Of a DNA stretch of 34,783 nucleotides, positions 4,208 to 10,075 are shown piece after piece. The notes beneath the pieces are model-generated. The model was not told where the DNA came from, searched no databases, and worked only from the letters and a program-made list of their open reading frames with translations. Every line of letters begins with the position of its first letter. Position 1 is the stretch's first letter. Source of the stretch: Alphaproteobacteria bacterium (GTDB lineage: Bacteria; Pseudomonadota; Alphaproteobacteria; GCA-2731375); the NCBI GenBank assembly GCA_029937535.1, contig JAPYPT010000018.1, positions 1 to 34,783 of the forward strand, given 5' to 3'. The position numbers and the translations under genes were made by a program.

Positions 4208-5260
4208 CTACCCAGACCAATTTATCAATCCCTGGATCGTATCATCGGCGATCTGCAAACCGCGTTCGACGACCCGAGCCTCCCAATCCCGGTCGTCACG
4301 GTAAAATGCCAGTTTAAACGCGGACCTGATCTTGCTGCCGTCCCGGCCGTCACCATGCCACCACAGGGCGTGCTCATCCCGCAGCGCGGCCAGAACACCA
4401 TCGAAAGGCAGCGTGCCGAACTCCAGGGTCAGGCAGATAACCTGGGCCGGCGCCAAGGCTTCCATGGCGCCATGGCCGGTCTTGCCGTGATTGATTTTGG
4501 CGGCCGCGGCGGTCATATCCTTGCCCCACCATTGCCGGGCCAGATCGTAGTCTTCCGTACCTTGGCGGTGATAGCACATGGGACTGCCGTAGCCCGACGG
4601 GCCCAGACCGGTGTGAATGTCCACATAGGCCGCTAATTTTACCTCCGGCAGCAGTTTCGGCAGGTATTCGCGGAGCGCGCGGTTGGACCAGACCGGCATG
4701 CGGCCGCCATAAAACATGCCTTCCGGCTGGTCATATTGCCCGCCGATGGCCCGCATGACGTTGAACTGGCCCATTTCCTCCCTGATGCGGGTCAACTCTT
4801 CATCGGCTGCCGCCCGCCCTGGGCCATCCAAGGCCGTCGCGGCCATGGCGGGGCCCAGCTTGGCATAACCTTCGTTGTGGGGGTGTTCGCCTTCGTGATC
4901 GATGAAATTGCGGTTCAGATCCACGTTGTTTTCATTGACCCGGCGCAGATGTGCAAAGCCGAACGCGTTCAGACCATGGACCAGCACCACGGCAAGATTA
5001 TCCGGCAAGGCGGCCGCCGTCTCCAGCCAGGCGGATTGAATGGCGGAGCCGGCAAAACCCTCGGCGCCGTGGGTGCCCGAGACCATGATCAAGGCCCGTT
5101 CCGCATTTTCCGGACCGAGCCGGAGAAATTCCGTGCTTAGTTCCAGGCCGTCGGGGCCGGATGCCGGATTGTCGGCCCGCACCAGGGCGCCGCCGGAGGT
5201 CTCGGCCAGCGCCAGGAAATAGTCCCTGCAGGCGGCATAGTCGGGTCTGAAATGGTTCAA
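4208..5260 (-). CDS. DUF2817 family zinc carboxypeptidase-like protein (second copy)
   Basis: This is a 350-residue member of the DUF2817 family, which is related to M14 zinc carboxypeptidases. Likely zinc ligands are His64 and Glu67 in THGAEG and His216 in DIHTGLG; the likely catalytic Glu280 sits in LEFGTLP. All are shared with the upstream paralogue. The open frame extends upstream to an ATG at 5329, but that extension only overlaps the paralogue's C-terminus and matches nothing in the family. Alignment with the paralogue places the true start near Leu-Asn-His-Phe, where a TTG at 5260-5258 overlaps the TGA of the upstream gene (5259-5257). GGCGGAAAG just upstream may be the ribosome site. 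This points to translational coupling and a rare TTG start. The substrate is unknown; an amide- or peptide-cleaving role is inferred from the fold. Confidence 0.82.
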   Translation of the reverse strand: MNHFRPDYAACRDYFLALAETSGGALVRADNPASGPDGLELSTEFLRLGPENAERALIMVSGTHGAEGFAGSAIQSAWLETAAALPDNLAVVLVHGLNAFGFAHLRRVNENNVDLNRNFIDHEGEHPHNEGYAKLGPAMAATALDGPGRAAADEELTRIREEMGQFNVMRAIGGQYDQPEGMFYGGRMPVWSNRALREYLPKLLPEVKLAAYVDIHTGLGPSGYGSPMCYHRQGTEDYDLARQWWGKDMTAAAAKINHGKTGHGAMEALAPAQVICLTLEFGTLPFDGVLAALRDEHALWWHGDGRDGSKIRSAFKLAFYRDDRDWEARVVERGLQIADDTIQGLINWSG

Positions 5261-6342
5261 CTTTCCGCCACGCCCTGTATGGTTTTGCGGGCGATATCCA
5301 GGCCGCGCTCCCAGATATCGGCGTTCCACTGGCTATCCTCGCCATAAAACGCGGCGCGGACCTCCCGTTTGATAACCTGACCGTCGGGCGAGGCCACATC
5401 GCCATGCAGATACAGCCAATTATCGGCACGCAAGGCCTGCAGAACCTGTTCGGGCGGCAGGGTGCCGTATTCGATGGCGATGGTCGTGCATTCGGTGTTG
5501 TTCAGCAAATTGGCATAGCCGCCCTCGATCGTACCCTGAACATCCGCCGAGACACTATCGCCCGAGGCCGGCGTGGCAACCCCATCGCCATACCAGGCCA
5601 CGGTGCGCAGATGCTCCGCCCCGCCGGGCACATCGACCGAGATCAATTCGGCCTCACCCCTGGGGCCCAGGCCCGTATGGAAATCGATCAACGCCATATG
5701 ACTGCGCCCCATCAGATGTTCGCCGGCCAACCTCTCGATGGTGCGCCGCGACCAGGTTGGCGCCTGGCCGCCAAAAAACAAACCATCGGGGTGGTGGTGC
5801 TGGCCGATGCTGACGGCGGCCTGGAAGGCAAACATGCCGTTTTGTTCGATGAAATTCTCGATTGCCGCGTCGGCAGCCTGACGCGCGGGGCCATCCCAAT
5901 CTTCGGGCACCAGCCAGGGGTGAACTTCCTCGTAGGCCGCATTGTCGGGCAGGGGCGCGCCGAAATCGATAAAATTGCGGTTCAAATCCACATTGTCTTC
6001 GGTGACGCGCCGTTCATGAGCAAAACCGTGGGGGTTATGGGCGTGGACATGCAGGAGAGCCATGCCCTTGGGCAGTTCGTTGTGCAGACCGCTTTCCAAA
6101 AAGCCGATCTGACAGCCCGAACCGCAGAACCCTTCGACGCCATGGGTGGCCGAGGAGACCACCACGACACGTTCGGCATCATGCGGTCCCACATAGGCCA
6201 GATCCGTCGCCAGATCGCCGCCGTCCGGACCTTTCAGGGGATGATCATAGGAATGCATCACGGCGCCCGCCGCCTTGGCCGCTCCTAGAAACTTCGCCCG
6301 CGCCTCACCGTAGCTGGCCGAGAACCAATCATCGATCGCCAT
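5257..6342 (-). CDS. DUF2817 family zinc carboxypeptidase-like protein (first copy)
   Basis: This 361-residue protein is the upstream member of a tandem DUF2817 pair. It has the M14-like metal site: His67 and Glu70 in ATHGVEG, His222 in DFHTGLG, and the probable general base Glu291 in IEYGTLP. The conserved family stretch NVDLNRNFIDF is also present. No signal peptide is seen, so it probably acts in the cytoplasm. I start it at the ATG at 6342, which follows GGGGAAG at a good distance. The open frame could extend to 6402, but that extra N-terminus is read from an intergenic palindromic repeat and is not believable. It overlaps the next gene by four bases. An acyl-CoA dehydrogenase lies 181 bp upstream on the same strand. 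The physiological substrate is unknown. Confidence 0.88.
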   Translation of the reverse strand: MAIDDWFSASYGEARAKFLGAAKAAGAVMHSYDHPLKGPDGGDLATDLAYVGPHDAERVVVVSSATHGVEGFCGSGCQIGFLESGLHNELPKGMALLHVHAHNPHGFAHERRVTEDNVDLNRNFIDFGAPLPDNAAYEEVHPWLVPEDWDGPARQAADAAIENFIEQNGMFAFQAAVSIGQHHHPDGLFFGGQAPTWSRRTIERLAGEHLMGRSHMALIDFHTGLGPRGEAELISVDVPGGAEHLRTVAWYGDGVATPASGDSVSADVQGTIEGGYANLLNNTECTTIAIEYGTLPPEQVLQALRADNWLYLHGDVASPDGQVIKREVRAAFYGEDSQWNADIWERGLDIARKTIQGVAES

Positions 6343-6374
6343 TGTTACTTCCCCATTTTCAACCACGGCCACCG

Positions 6375-6437
6375 CGTCATTCCGGCGCAGGCGGGAATCC
6401 ATGCCTGCCCTGGACTCCCGCCTGCGCGGGAGTGACG
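6375..6437. repeat. REP-like intergenic palindrome
   Basis: Two 27-base arms (6375-6401 and 6411-6437) form an imperfect inverted repeat with 3 mismatches around a short loop. The arms have the CGTCATTCC...GGCGGGAATCCA character of dispersed palindromes common in intergenic regions of many alphaproteobacteria. It lies upstream of the DUF2817 pair and produces the false N-terminal extension there. No second copy was seen in this window. Confidence 0.7.
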
Positions 6438-6523: not shown

Positions 6524-7732
6524 CTAGTTCCAGCGGCGCAGTTCCAGCCGCCCGATTTGCGCGCGATGAACCTCGTCGGGACCATCGGCAAAGCGCAATG
6601 TGCGGGAATGAGCATAGGCGTGCGCCAGATTGAAAACCTGGCTGACGCCGCCGCCGCCATGCACCTGCATGGCCATGTCCACCACCCGGCAGGTCATGTT
6701 CGGCACCGCCACCTTGATCATGGCGATTTCCTTGCGGGCCTCCTTGTTGCCCACCCGATCCATCTTGTGGGCCGCATACAGCACCAGCAAGCGGTTGGAA
6801 TCGATGGCGATGCGCGCCTCGGCGATCCGCTCGGTGGTGACCGATTGTTCGGAAACCAGCTTGCCGAAGGCAAAGCGGGATTTGGCCCGTTTGCACATGC
6901 TTTCCAGGGCGCGCTCCGCCACGCCGATCTGGCGCATGCAGTGATGGATCCGCCCCGGGCCAAGCCGCCCCTGGGCAATCTCAAAGCCCCGGCCCTCGCC
7001 CAGCAGAATATGATCGGCGGGGACGCGGACGTCCTCGAACAGCACCTGGCCATGGCCGTGGGGGGCATCATCATAGCCGAAGACATGCAGCATTTTTTCC
7101 ACGGTAATTCCCGGCGTATCGCGGGGCACCACGATCATGGATTGCTGGCGGTAGCGGTCGGGATTGTCCGGATCGGTCTTGCCCATCAGGATCAGCACTT
7201 CGCAACGGGGATCGCCGATGCCGGAGGTCCACCACTTGCGGCCGTTAATGACGTATTCATCGCCCTCGCGCACGATGGCGGTCTCGATGTTGGTGGCATC
7301 CGAGGAGGCCACGGCGGGCTCGGTCATGGCGAAGGCGGAACGGATCTTGCCGTCCAGCAGGGGCGTCAGCCAGCGCTCCTTGAGTTCCTCGTTGGCATAG
7401 CGGGTGAACACTTCCATGTTGCCCGTATCCGGCGCCGAACAATTGGTGGCCTCGGCGGCGATGGGTGAACGGCCCATGATCTCGCACAGGGGCGAATAAT
7501 CCAGGTTCGACATGGGCTCTACTGCGTCACTCTCCGGCAGAAAGAGGTTCCACAGCCCGACTTCGCGGGCCTTGGCCTTCATTTCCTCCAAAACCTGGGG
7601 CACGCTCCAGCGCTCCGCGGCGCTGTCGAGTTGTTCTTGATAGACGTCCTCGTTCGAGTACACCGTATCGTCCATGAATTTCAGCAGCCGCTCCTGCAGA
7701 TCCTTCGAGCGGTCCGAATAATCTGGAATCAT
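6524..7732 (-). CDS. Acyl-CoA dehydrogenase family protein
   Basis: This 402-residue flavoprotein should oxidise an acyl-CoA to its 2-enoyl-CoA, passing electrons to ETF. The N-terminal helical domain (about 1-130) is followed by the FAD-contacting stretch [16 protein letters not shown] at 134-149 and the beta-domain motif [12 protein letters not shown] near 164-175. The C-terminal helical domain starts around 250 and ends with [11 protein letters not shown] and [11 protein letters not shown]. The WWTSG and GPDEVHR forms resemble the ACAD10/ACAD11-like branch, which acts on long or modified chains, but the substrate cannot be read from sequence. The ATG at 7732 is preceded by GGAAGGA. The gene is divergent from the GrdB-like selenoprotein gene, with about 165 bp between the starts, which may reflect joint regulation. 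Confidence 0.92.
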
Positions 7733-7803: not shown

Positions 7804-7897
7804 TGTAACGCGTGTGATGACCCGAGTCTCCTATGAGTTTGGGCCGGGGTATGTGTTATGTTGTCGCAGAGTATATTTTGAAGAAAGGGCTGAATTG

Positions 7898-8863
7898 ATG
7901 CCTGAACGGACAAAAGAGGACGATAATCTGGGTTTTGCCGCCGCCCACGATCTGCCCGTCCCCTATATGCAGCGGCTACGGGACTATTATCTGGCCCTTG
8001 GCTACGGCAACCCCTATCGCTGGGCGCAATATACCAACGTCCCCTTCACCCCCCTGGCCAAGCCGTTGAAAGAGACCAAGGTCGGCCTCGTGGTCACCTC
8101 CGCCCCCTATCAGCCCGACAAGGGCGATCAAGGGCCGGGTGCTAGCTACAACGCCTCGGCCAAGTTCTATCGGGTTTATGCCGATAGCGTGGATAGCGAA
8201 CCGGATGTGCGGATCTCTCATCTCGGCTATGACCGCAAATACACCACCGCCGCCGATATCAATTCCTTCTTCCCCCTGGCGCAGCTAAAGATCGCGGCGG
8301 ATGAAGGCCGTATCGGCGGCCTGGCGCCGCGGTTTCACGGCACGCCGACGAACCGCAGTCAGCAGACCACCATCGAACAGGATTGCGCGGATGTATTACG
8401 GGGTCTACGGGAGGATGGGGCGGAAGCCGCCGTCATTGTCGCCACCTGACCGGTGTGCCACCAGACCGTGAGTCTGACCGCACGTTACCTGGAAGCGAAC
8501 GGCATCCCCACCGTGATCATGGGTTGCGCCAAGGATATCGTCGAACAGGCCGGCGTGCCGCGCTTTCTGTTCAGTGACTTTCCCCTGGGCAATGCCGCCG
8601 GTAAACCCCATGACCCGGCTTCCCAAGCGCAAACCATGGCCCTGGCCCTGGATCTGCTGGAAAGCGCCATTGGCCCCCGCACCACCCTGCAATCGCGGCA
8701 ACGGTGGAACGATGATGCGGAATGGAAGCTGGATTTCCAGAATGTGGATCGTATCGGGACGGAGGAAATCGCCCGCCGGCGGGCTGATTTCGACGAGGTT
8801 AAGCGGGTTGCCAAGCAACGCCGGGACGCGGCCGCCGGGCAACAGACCGACGCGGCTGAATAG
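7898..8863 (+). CDS. GrdB-family selenoprotein with in-frame TGA (Sec184), UxxC motif
   Basis: I read this as one 321-residue protein of the glycine/sarcosine/betaine reductase selenoprotein B family, with TGA at 8447-8449 decoded as selenocysteine. Frame and family similarity run unbroken across the TGA: before it stands DCADVLRGLREDGAEAAVIV, after it PVCHQTVSLTARYLEANGIP and GVPRFLFSDFPLGN. The TGA falls at the first position of what is CPVC in Cys-type relatives, giving Sec184-Pro-Val-Cys187, a typical redox-active UxxC. A SECIS-like stem-loop follows (8452-8489). The start at ATG 7898 follows GAAAGGGC; upstream ATGs at 7814 and 7817 are less convincing. The true glycine-reductase partners GrdA, GrdC and GrdD are not nearby, so the reaction is unknown; a thiol/selenol-dependent reductase or lyase is inferred. 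A CoA-transferase follows 18 bp downstream. The alternative is a nonsense mutation or sequencing error changing TGC to TGA. Confidence 0.83.
8452..8489 (+). promoter_or_regulatory. Candidate bacterial SECIS element
   Basis: Directly after the in-frame TGA the RNA can fold into a stem-loop. GGU (8452-8454) pairs with ACC (8487-8489), GUGC (8455-8458) with GCAC (8480-8483), and CAGAC (8462-8466) with GUCUG (8472-8476), leaving the apical loop CGUGA at 8467-8471. The loop contains G-U, as in known SelB-binding loops, and begins 17 nt after the UGA, inside the usual range of about 16-37 nt for bacterial SECIS elements. The fold was found by eye; its energy was not computed. Confidence 0.6.
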
Positions 8864-8881: not shown

Positions 8882-10075
8882 ATGAGTAAACCATTCGAGG
8901 GTGTCCGGGTTCTCGACTTCACCCAAGTGTTCGCGGGGCCATTCGGCACCTTCCAATTGGCCCTGCTGGGCGCCGATGTGATCAAGGTGGAGCGGCCGGG
9001 CGGCGAGGAAATGCGCAACGGCCCCCTGTCCAAGGAATGGAGCGACCGGGGCATGGCGCCCGGCTGGCTGGCCATCAACGCCAACAAGCGCAACATCGCC
9101 CTGGACCTAAAAGACCCTAAGGCCATCGAAATCGTCAAACGCCTGGCGGCCAAGGCCGATATCGTGACGGAAAACTACCGCCCCGGCGTCATGGAGCGTC
9201 TTGGCATCGGCTATGAAGCACTTTCGGCGATCAATCCCGGGCTGATCTACTGCGCCGTCTCCGGCTTCGGCCAGAACGGGCCGGAACGCAACACGCCGTC
9301 CTATGATGGCCGTATTCAGGCGGTCTCGGGCATCATGTCCATCACCGGGCATGAGGGCACGGGCCCGACGCGGGTCGGGTTTGCCGTCTGTGACGCCATT
9401 GGCGGCATGACCTCCGCCTTCGCCATCGCCTCCGCCCTGTTCCAACGCACCCACACGGGCAAGGGCCAGTGCATCGATGTTTCCATGCTGGATTCCACCC
9501 TGGCCTTTCTCTCGCCCCTGGTCTCCGAGCACACCACGACGGGGCACATTCATGGCCAATACGGCAACCAGGCCATCTCCCGCCGCCCGACCGCCAATCT
9601 GTTCAAGGTGGGTGATGATAATTTGCTGTTGGCGGTGAACACGGAAAAACAGTTCAAGGCCCTGATGGGGGCAATCGACCGGCCCGAACTGCTCGACGAT
9701 CCCCGCTTCGCCGACTGGCACGGCCGCACGGAACACGAAGCGGCCCTGCGCGAGATTATCGAAGGCGCCTTCGCCACCGCCGATATCGACACCTGGGAAG
9801 CCCGCCTGGCCGAGGCCGGCGCGCCGGCAAGCCAGGTCCGGACCATCGCCGAAGCTCTCAAGCACCCGCAATTGGCGCACCGCGACGTCCTGCAATCCGT
9901 CGACAGCCCCCATGGCGAACTGAACCTGATCGGCTCCGGCTTCCGCCTGGCCCACGGCGGCGGCACCATCGACCGCCCCCCCGTTTCCCCCGGTGCCGAC
10001 GCCGAGGAAGTCCTGGCCGAGGCCGGCTACAGCACGGCTGAAATCACCGCCTTCAAGGACGCAAACGTCATTTGA
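8882..10075 (+). CDS. CaiB/BaiF (class III) CoA-transferase family protein
   Basis: This 397-residue enzyme should move CoA between carboxylic acids through an enzyme-bound aspartyl anhydride. The N-terminus VRVLDFTQVFAGPFGTFQL and GADVIKVERPGGE are family hallmarks. The likely catalytic residue is Asp142 in PSYDGRIQAVSG, equivalent to Asp169 of formyl-CoA transferase. The region ISRRPTANLFKVGDDNLLL and the C-terminal DVLQSVDSPHGE are also typical. GGAG sits nine bases before the ATG. It lies 18 bp after the GrdB-like selenoprotein gene on the same strand, so the two are probably co-transcribed, suggesting that the selenoprotein's substrate or product is an organic acid or thioester. The specific acids cannot be told from sequence. 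Confidence 0.92.
   Translation: MSKPFEGVRVLDFTQVFAGPFGTFQLALLGADVIKVERPGGEEMRNGPLSKEWSDRGMAPGWLAINANKRNIALDLKDPKAIEIVKRLAAKADIVTENYRPGVMERLGIGYEALSAINPGLIYCAVSGFGQNGPERNTPSYDGRIQAVSGIMSITGHEGTGPTRVGFAVCDAIGGMTSAFAIASALFQRTHTGKGQCIDVSMLDSTLAFLSPLVSEHTTTGHIHGQYGNQAISRRPTANLFKVGDDNLLLAVNTEKQFKALMGAIDRPELLDDPRFADWHGRTEHEAALREIIEGAFATADIDTWEARLAEAGAPASQVRTIAEALKHPQLAHRDVLQSVDSPHGELNLIGSGFRLAHGGGTIDRPPVSPGADAEEVLAEAGYSTAEITAFKDANVI

Follow-up and report, generated by a model that had tools for sequence, protein, structure and literature searches.

Does the TGA at 8447–8449 of the window, the 34,783-nucleotide stretch of alphaproteobacterial DNA analysed here, end a gene or mark a decayed one, or is it read as selenocysteine (Sec), and if so, what might the resulting protein do?

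One gene across an in-frame TGA

The forward-strand frame from 7814 to 8863 is interrupted by a single in-frame TGA (8447–8449), followed by CCG and then by GTG at 8453. ORFs 7814–8449 and 8453–8863 lie in one frame with only the TGA and one codon between them, and the motif U-P-V-C has the TGA as residue 184 counted from ATG 7898, both as the original prediction had it. The frame is open from 7814, and ATG 7898 is the likely start of a gene (7898–8863, forward strand) of 321 codons including that for Sec; Cys187, the UxxC partner of the putative Sec184, is encoded at 8456–8458. Pairs of long same-frame ORFs around a TGA are not rare here (they made up 4 of the 20 cases counted mechanically in this GC-rich window), so the evidence lies in conservation rather than in frame length.

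The family similarity that had been predicted to continue across the TGA does so: tblastn alignments run through it in 80 of 80 relatives. At these loci, all from other species, the codon aligned with residue 184 is TGA in 45, TGC in 30 and TGT in 5, with no other codon; the check for Cys or Sec at this position was thus positive throughout, and every locus carries the motif (U/C)PVC. Measured against close relatives, the stretch behind the TGA has a dN/dS of about 0.1–0.2, as low as that before it, and many independent assemblies contain the same TGA. The relatives include named strains of Reyranella, Desertibaculum and Enhydrobacter, which have the Sec form, and of Bradyrhizobium, which has the Cys form, making the function directly testable.

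Hairpin and selenocysteine machinery

A SECIS-type hairpin with helix CAGAC/GUCUG and loop CGUGA lies at 8462–8476 on the forward strand. It begins 15 nt behind the TGA, occupying nt 16–30 counted from the T of that codon, and in some relatives an outer helix pairs about 8455–8458 with 8480–8483. All five hairpin pairs are present in 96% of the 46 Sec orthologues and in 0 of 35 Cys orthologues, compared with a mean of 57% and a maximum of 76% when synonymous codons were redrawn 300 times. The codons ACC, GTG and CTG (Thr218, Val219 and Leu221) are invariant in all 46 Sec genes and variable in the Cys genes; residue 220 is encoded by AGT in 45 of the 46, and its codon likewise varies in the Cys genes. 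Loop positions C21 and G22 are invariant across all Sec orthologues, in agreement with the loop-start G of bacterial SECIS elements. The paralogues described below carry hairpins in the same register but with other stems, namely CGCGC paired with GCGCG or with GCGGG (the latter containing one mismatch), CAAAC/GUUUG and ACCGC/GCGGU. Over 19 sequences, 94% of cells are paired, and in 24 cells both partners have changed; 0 of 500 shuffles scored as high for pairing or for such double changes. The single-sequence energy of the hairpin is unexceptional (z about −1), and single-sequence energies and mean z-scores separate Sec from Cys genes poorly, whereas the pair-by-pair synonymous-codon test separates them; the case for a SECIS element therefore rests on conservation and covariation. 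An Rfam scan of the window gave no match, which places the hairpin in no curated family.

The genes selA, selB and selD and a tRNA-Sec, for which the original prediction had proposed a search, are all present in the genome. The tRNA-Sec scores 68 bits and has the anticodon TCA; a second match, on contig C259, proved to be a tRNA-Ser. Genes for SelB (434 bits) and SelA (582 bits) adjoin on contig C314. The selD gene (L014:1501-2427) itself contains an in-frame TGA within the motif GGGUGTK, and SelD of this organism is probably a selenoprotein, judging by its sequence. Another SelD-like match (L015:1501-2418, minus strand; 318 bits) lies inside an open frame of 787 codons and is possibly a fusion. 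Across the genomes tested, SelB scores above the cut-off in 24 of 25 with a Sec orthologue, as against 10 of 25 with a Cys orthologue (Fisher p = 3.4e-5).

Two readings of the TGA other than selenocysteine have to be weighed against these data. That it arose by faulty assembly, or by a nonsense mutation that left a pseudogene, might be suspected for an uncultured organism whose assembly is in 534 contigs, and Cys homologues do exist; but the same TGA stands in 45 orthologues, each from another assembly than this one, and in paralogues from every one of the ten genus genomes sampled, the sequence behind it remains under purifying selection, and the hairpin is found only together with it. We regard this explanation as extremely improbable. 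Just as improbable is termination at the TGA with a restart at GTG 8453, giving two separate proteins. This GTG is located two codons behind the TGA, yet it encodes the Val of the conserved PVC and is replaced in 16 of 46 Sec orthologues by GTC, at which no start is possible, while the Cys orthologues run through the site as a single protein that aligns there in the same way. We consider it confirmed that 7898–8863 is one gene, and the evidence supports its reading as a selenoprotein gene; insertion of Sec at UGA 184 itself is very likely on this comparative evidence.

A PrdB/GrdB-like family with several paralogues

The original prediction assigned the protein to the GrdB family. At the level of Pfam this stands, as PF07355 is matched at 31.7 bits, above its gathering score of 22, but among the NCBIfam models PrdB (TIGR04483) ranks first rather than GrdB, and at 94.1 bits the match falls below the curated cut-off of 300. 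The model for glycine/betaine/sarcosine/D-proline selenoprotein B (TIGR01918) gives 39.5 bits against a cut-off of 65.45, and the GrdB models about 40–46 bits against cut-offs of 65–800. The PF07355 alignment covers the C-terminal part only (profile positions 207–347 of 347), and the N-terminal half of GrdB is missing. Because the Pfam match is only C-terminal and the PrdB score far below its cut-off, we call the protein PrdB/GrdB-like, and the data support this label over that of a glycine or proline reductase subunit.

Several known systems invite comparison. Clostridial PrdB, from D-proline reductase, resembles the window protein in length class and in the position of Sec or Cys, besides giving the best NCBIfam model, but identity is about 32–34%, and the window organism has no PrdA and a different operon. 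GrdB, GrdF, GrdH and FarB share PF07355 and the occurrence of several Sec paralogues per genome, for which different substrates have been proposed (PMC10838667); Cloacibacillus porcorum MFA1, for example, has eight Sec grdB genes (PMC10838667). Their hosts, however, are anaerobes with GrdE and a glycine reductase system (PMC10838667), while the window protein is without GrdB's N-terminal half and has no GrdE partner. The UGSC family (PF24696) is likewise marine, has UxxC and is without an assigned function, but it was matched only below threshold (14.6 bits, cut-off 25), and then by one Cys relative.

D-proline and glycine-type reductases require a pyruvoyl subunit (PrdA/GrdE, PF09338), and the glycine-type enzymes additionally require GrdA (PF04723) (PMC13188914, PMC10838667). 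Among genomes of the genus and family, nine were searched for PF09338 and eight for PF04723 and none had a match, while both domains were detected in a Peptoclostridium acidaminophilum record used as positive control; the paralogues are therefore not classical proline or glycine reductases. One could still suppose that the protein supplies the Sec subunit to a genuine D-proline (or glycine, betaine or sarcosine) reductase whose pyruvoyl partner and GrdA are encoded elsewhere in the genome. The PF07355 match, the rank of PrdB among the NCBIfam models and the filing of such marine sequences under PrdB in published surveys (PMC1088965, PMC2398784) would fit this; the low PrdB score, the partner domains missing from genomes in which the controlled search should find them, and neighbours that are CoA enzymes rather than prd or grd genes make it most improbable. 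For the joint reading, that the gene encodes a selenoprotein, that it belongs to a PrdB/GrdB-like family and that the classical partners are absent, we estimate a probability of roughly 0.88, a figure that does not extend to the chemistry.

As a selenoprotein the family is already known from marine metagenomes, since 2005. The surveys record 42 Sec 'PrdB' sequences with UxxC from the Sargasso Sea (PMC1088965) and 235 assigned to pfam07355 from the Global Ocean Sampling (PMC2398784), and the family also appears in a 2026 review (PMC13188914). The window gene agrees with these in pfam07355 membership, UxxC, origin in marine bacteria and the frequency of Sec beside Cys forms, and very probably belongs to the same family, the likeness being drawn from the published descriptions rather than from the deposited fragments. 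For such marine sequences the label 'proline reductase PrdB' probably misstates the function. The surveys dealt with reads and fragments, and the passages considered here mention neither several paralogues per genome, nor the absence of pyruvoyl or GrdA partners, nor a link to CoA-transferases (PMC1088965, PMC2398784). Searches of open-licence papers turned up no account of the expansion across the genus, the missing partners or the CoA-transferase link, which is no proof that none exists. The window gene thus adds one more member to a selenoprotein family already catalogued, and the interest lies in the set: new here are seven TGA-containing paralogues in one genome, 6–11 in each of ten sampled genomes of the genus, and the absent partners. 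This set may be a variant worth study.

Seven PF07355-like genes are present in the genome of the window organism, and in each the same site is a TGA; every one of them matches the NCBIfam PrdB model below its cut-off, and two of the paralogues fall just under the Pfam gathering score. The six outside the window (L099, L100, L101, L102, L103 and L104, on contigs C352, C104, C181, C153, C365 and C354, respectively) have one in-frame TGA each, at that site, and are all probably selenoproteins. Each of the ten sampled genus genomes has 6–11 copies, with U in every copy that covers the site, and in a maximum-likelihood tree, some deep joins of which involve long branches and are unsure, the seven copies fall into seven separate groups common to the genus. 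When 240 genomes were drawn more broadly from the class, 27 carried at least one copy, and those outside the family had 1–5 each. Under a published threshold of at least six selenoprotein genes (PMC5029168), the uncultured alphaproteobacteria of this set count as selenoprotein-rich, a condition known mostly from reports on anaerobes.

The groups differ around the site. The motif UPVCHQTV is found in the window group and three other groups of this genome, and UP(N/L/F)CTRAV in two (L103 and L104 with their orthologues), which have a C-terminal extension of roughly 150 residues with no Pfam match. One group has UPLDHQTV, without the resolving Cys: in all ten of its genes (L102:649-1458, minus strand, and orthologues in L164-L172) Asp replaces Cys while Sec and the SECIS hairpin are kept, so that a Sec–Cys bridge cannot be universal in the family. 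In genome G012, two PF07355-like copies lie within 4 kb on one strand (L195), and one of them has the stem ACCGC/GCGGU, a third independent stem sequence.

Gene neighbourhood and possible function

A family III CoA-transferase gene (PF02515, 388 bits; 8882–10075, forward strand) begins 18 nt behind the selenoprotein gene. A PF02515 CoA-transferase is the next gene on the same strand at 66 of the 80 related loci, mostly within about 40 nt, and this adjacency extends from marine Alphaproteobacteria to Bradyrhizobium, Reyranella and Rokubacteria; in 7 of the 66 the neighbour is a different PF02515 member, only 31–36% identical. The conserved adjacency points to a probable two-gene operon, and the CoA-transferase offers a first handle on the substrate. 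On the other side, a divergent acyl-CoA dehydrogenase gene (6524–7732, minus strand) is kept in close relatives only (9 of 80 loci), and tandem DUF2817 (PF10994) genes at 4208–5329 and 5257–6402 (minus strand) are kept beside the selenoprotein gene in nine close relatives; we rejected both as functional partners on account of this narrow distribution.

The paralogue groups have neighbours of their own. Groups C1 and G lie beside a CoA-transferase III, group G also beside a 2-hydroxyacid dehydrogenase (11 of 12 loci), group D beside an acyl-CoA dehydrogenase, group B beside an enoyl-CoA hydratase and a glyoxalase, group C3 beside an amidohydrolase, group E beside a luciferase-like monooxygenase and group F beside a TauD dioxygenase. 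Group C2 has an acyl-CoA synthetase on the opposite strand and, directly behind the Sec paralogue at 9 of 9 genus loci and with a median gap of 4 nt, a glutaredoxin (L099:1239-1499, minus strand). This glutaredoxin, which adjoins a paralogue and not the window gene, is a possible reductant.

These data are best read as pointing to a Sec/Cys redox enzyme that stands alone and serves CoA-linked catabolism. In the mechanism we envisage, the ribosome would read UGA 8447–8449 as Sec by means of SelB, tRNA-Sec and the mRNA hairpin 15 nt downstream, and Sec184 and Cys187 would likely form a UxxC redox pair in the window protein, which would work without a pyruvoyl subunit such as the clostridial reductases have. 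The CoA-transferase may activate or release a carboxylic acid; the selenolate of Sec184 could attack an electrophilic carbon or heteroatom of the substrate and cleave the bond reductively, Cys187 would resolve the Sec adduct to an Se–S bridge, and a glutaredoxin or thioredoxin might reduce this bridge again. Paralogues would perform the same chemistry on different substrates. Reductive cleavage of a substrate handled by the CoA-transferase, with Sec as the nucleophile, appears to us the most likely mechanism, although by analogy and tentatively, at distinctly less than even odds; Sec has been proposed as nucleophile in FarB and GrdB (PMC10838667).

The main functional rival is that the same selenoprotein is a general thiol or selenol oxidoreductase, reducing disulphides or peroxides. 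UxxC is listed as a common redox motif of selenoproteins in Table 2 of the marine survey (PMC2398784), some family members show a weak, sub-threshold Thioredoxin_3 match over the UxxC region, and the glutaredoxin of group C2 would suit such an activity. The 6–11 diverged paralogues per genome fit substrate-specific enzymes better, however, as do the varied catabolic neighbours (CoA-transferase, acyl-CoA dehydrogenase, enoyl-CoA hydratase, amidohydrolase, TauD and flavin monooxygenase), and one paralogue group is without the Cys; we judge a general oxidoreductase unlikely, though a serious contender. Extending the bond-cleaving mechanism to the whole set, a marine lineage of Alphaproteobacteria would possess at least six substrate-diverse, stand-alone Sec-dependent reductive enzymes per genome, with a PrdB/GrdB fold and without pyruvoyl cofactor or GrdA, coupled to CoA-transferases and other CoA enzymes. 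This broader proposal is speculative and will more probably fail than hold; if true, it would amount to a new selenium-dependent catabolic route.

A PDB sequence search gave no match with the single protein and only chance-level matches with a profile. Structure prediction with AlphaFold2 from 27 aligned sequences gave a model with a pLDDT of 90.5 and a pTM of 0.87, for which a PDB fold search with Foldseek found no match at E <= 0.001. The best fold on a second look was the LacI core (Z 8.9, 146 residues, rmsd 4.2), a likeness at the level of common Rossmann-like arrangements that we dropped as a functional hint. In the predicted structure, residue 184 follows a strand (177–181) and caps the N-terminus of a helix (185–200), a position in which reactive selenols and thiols are commonly found.
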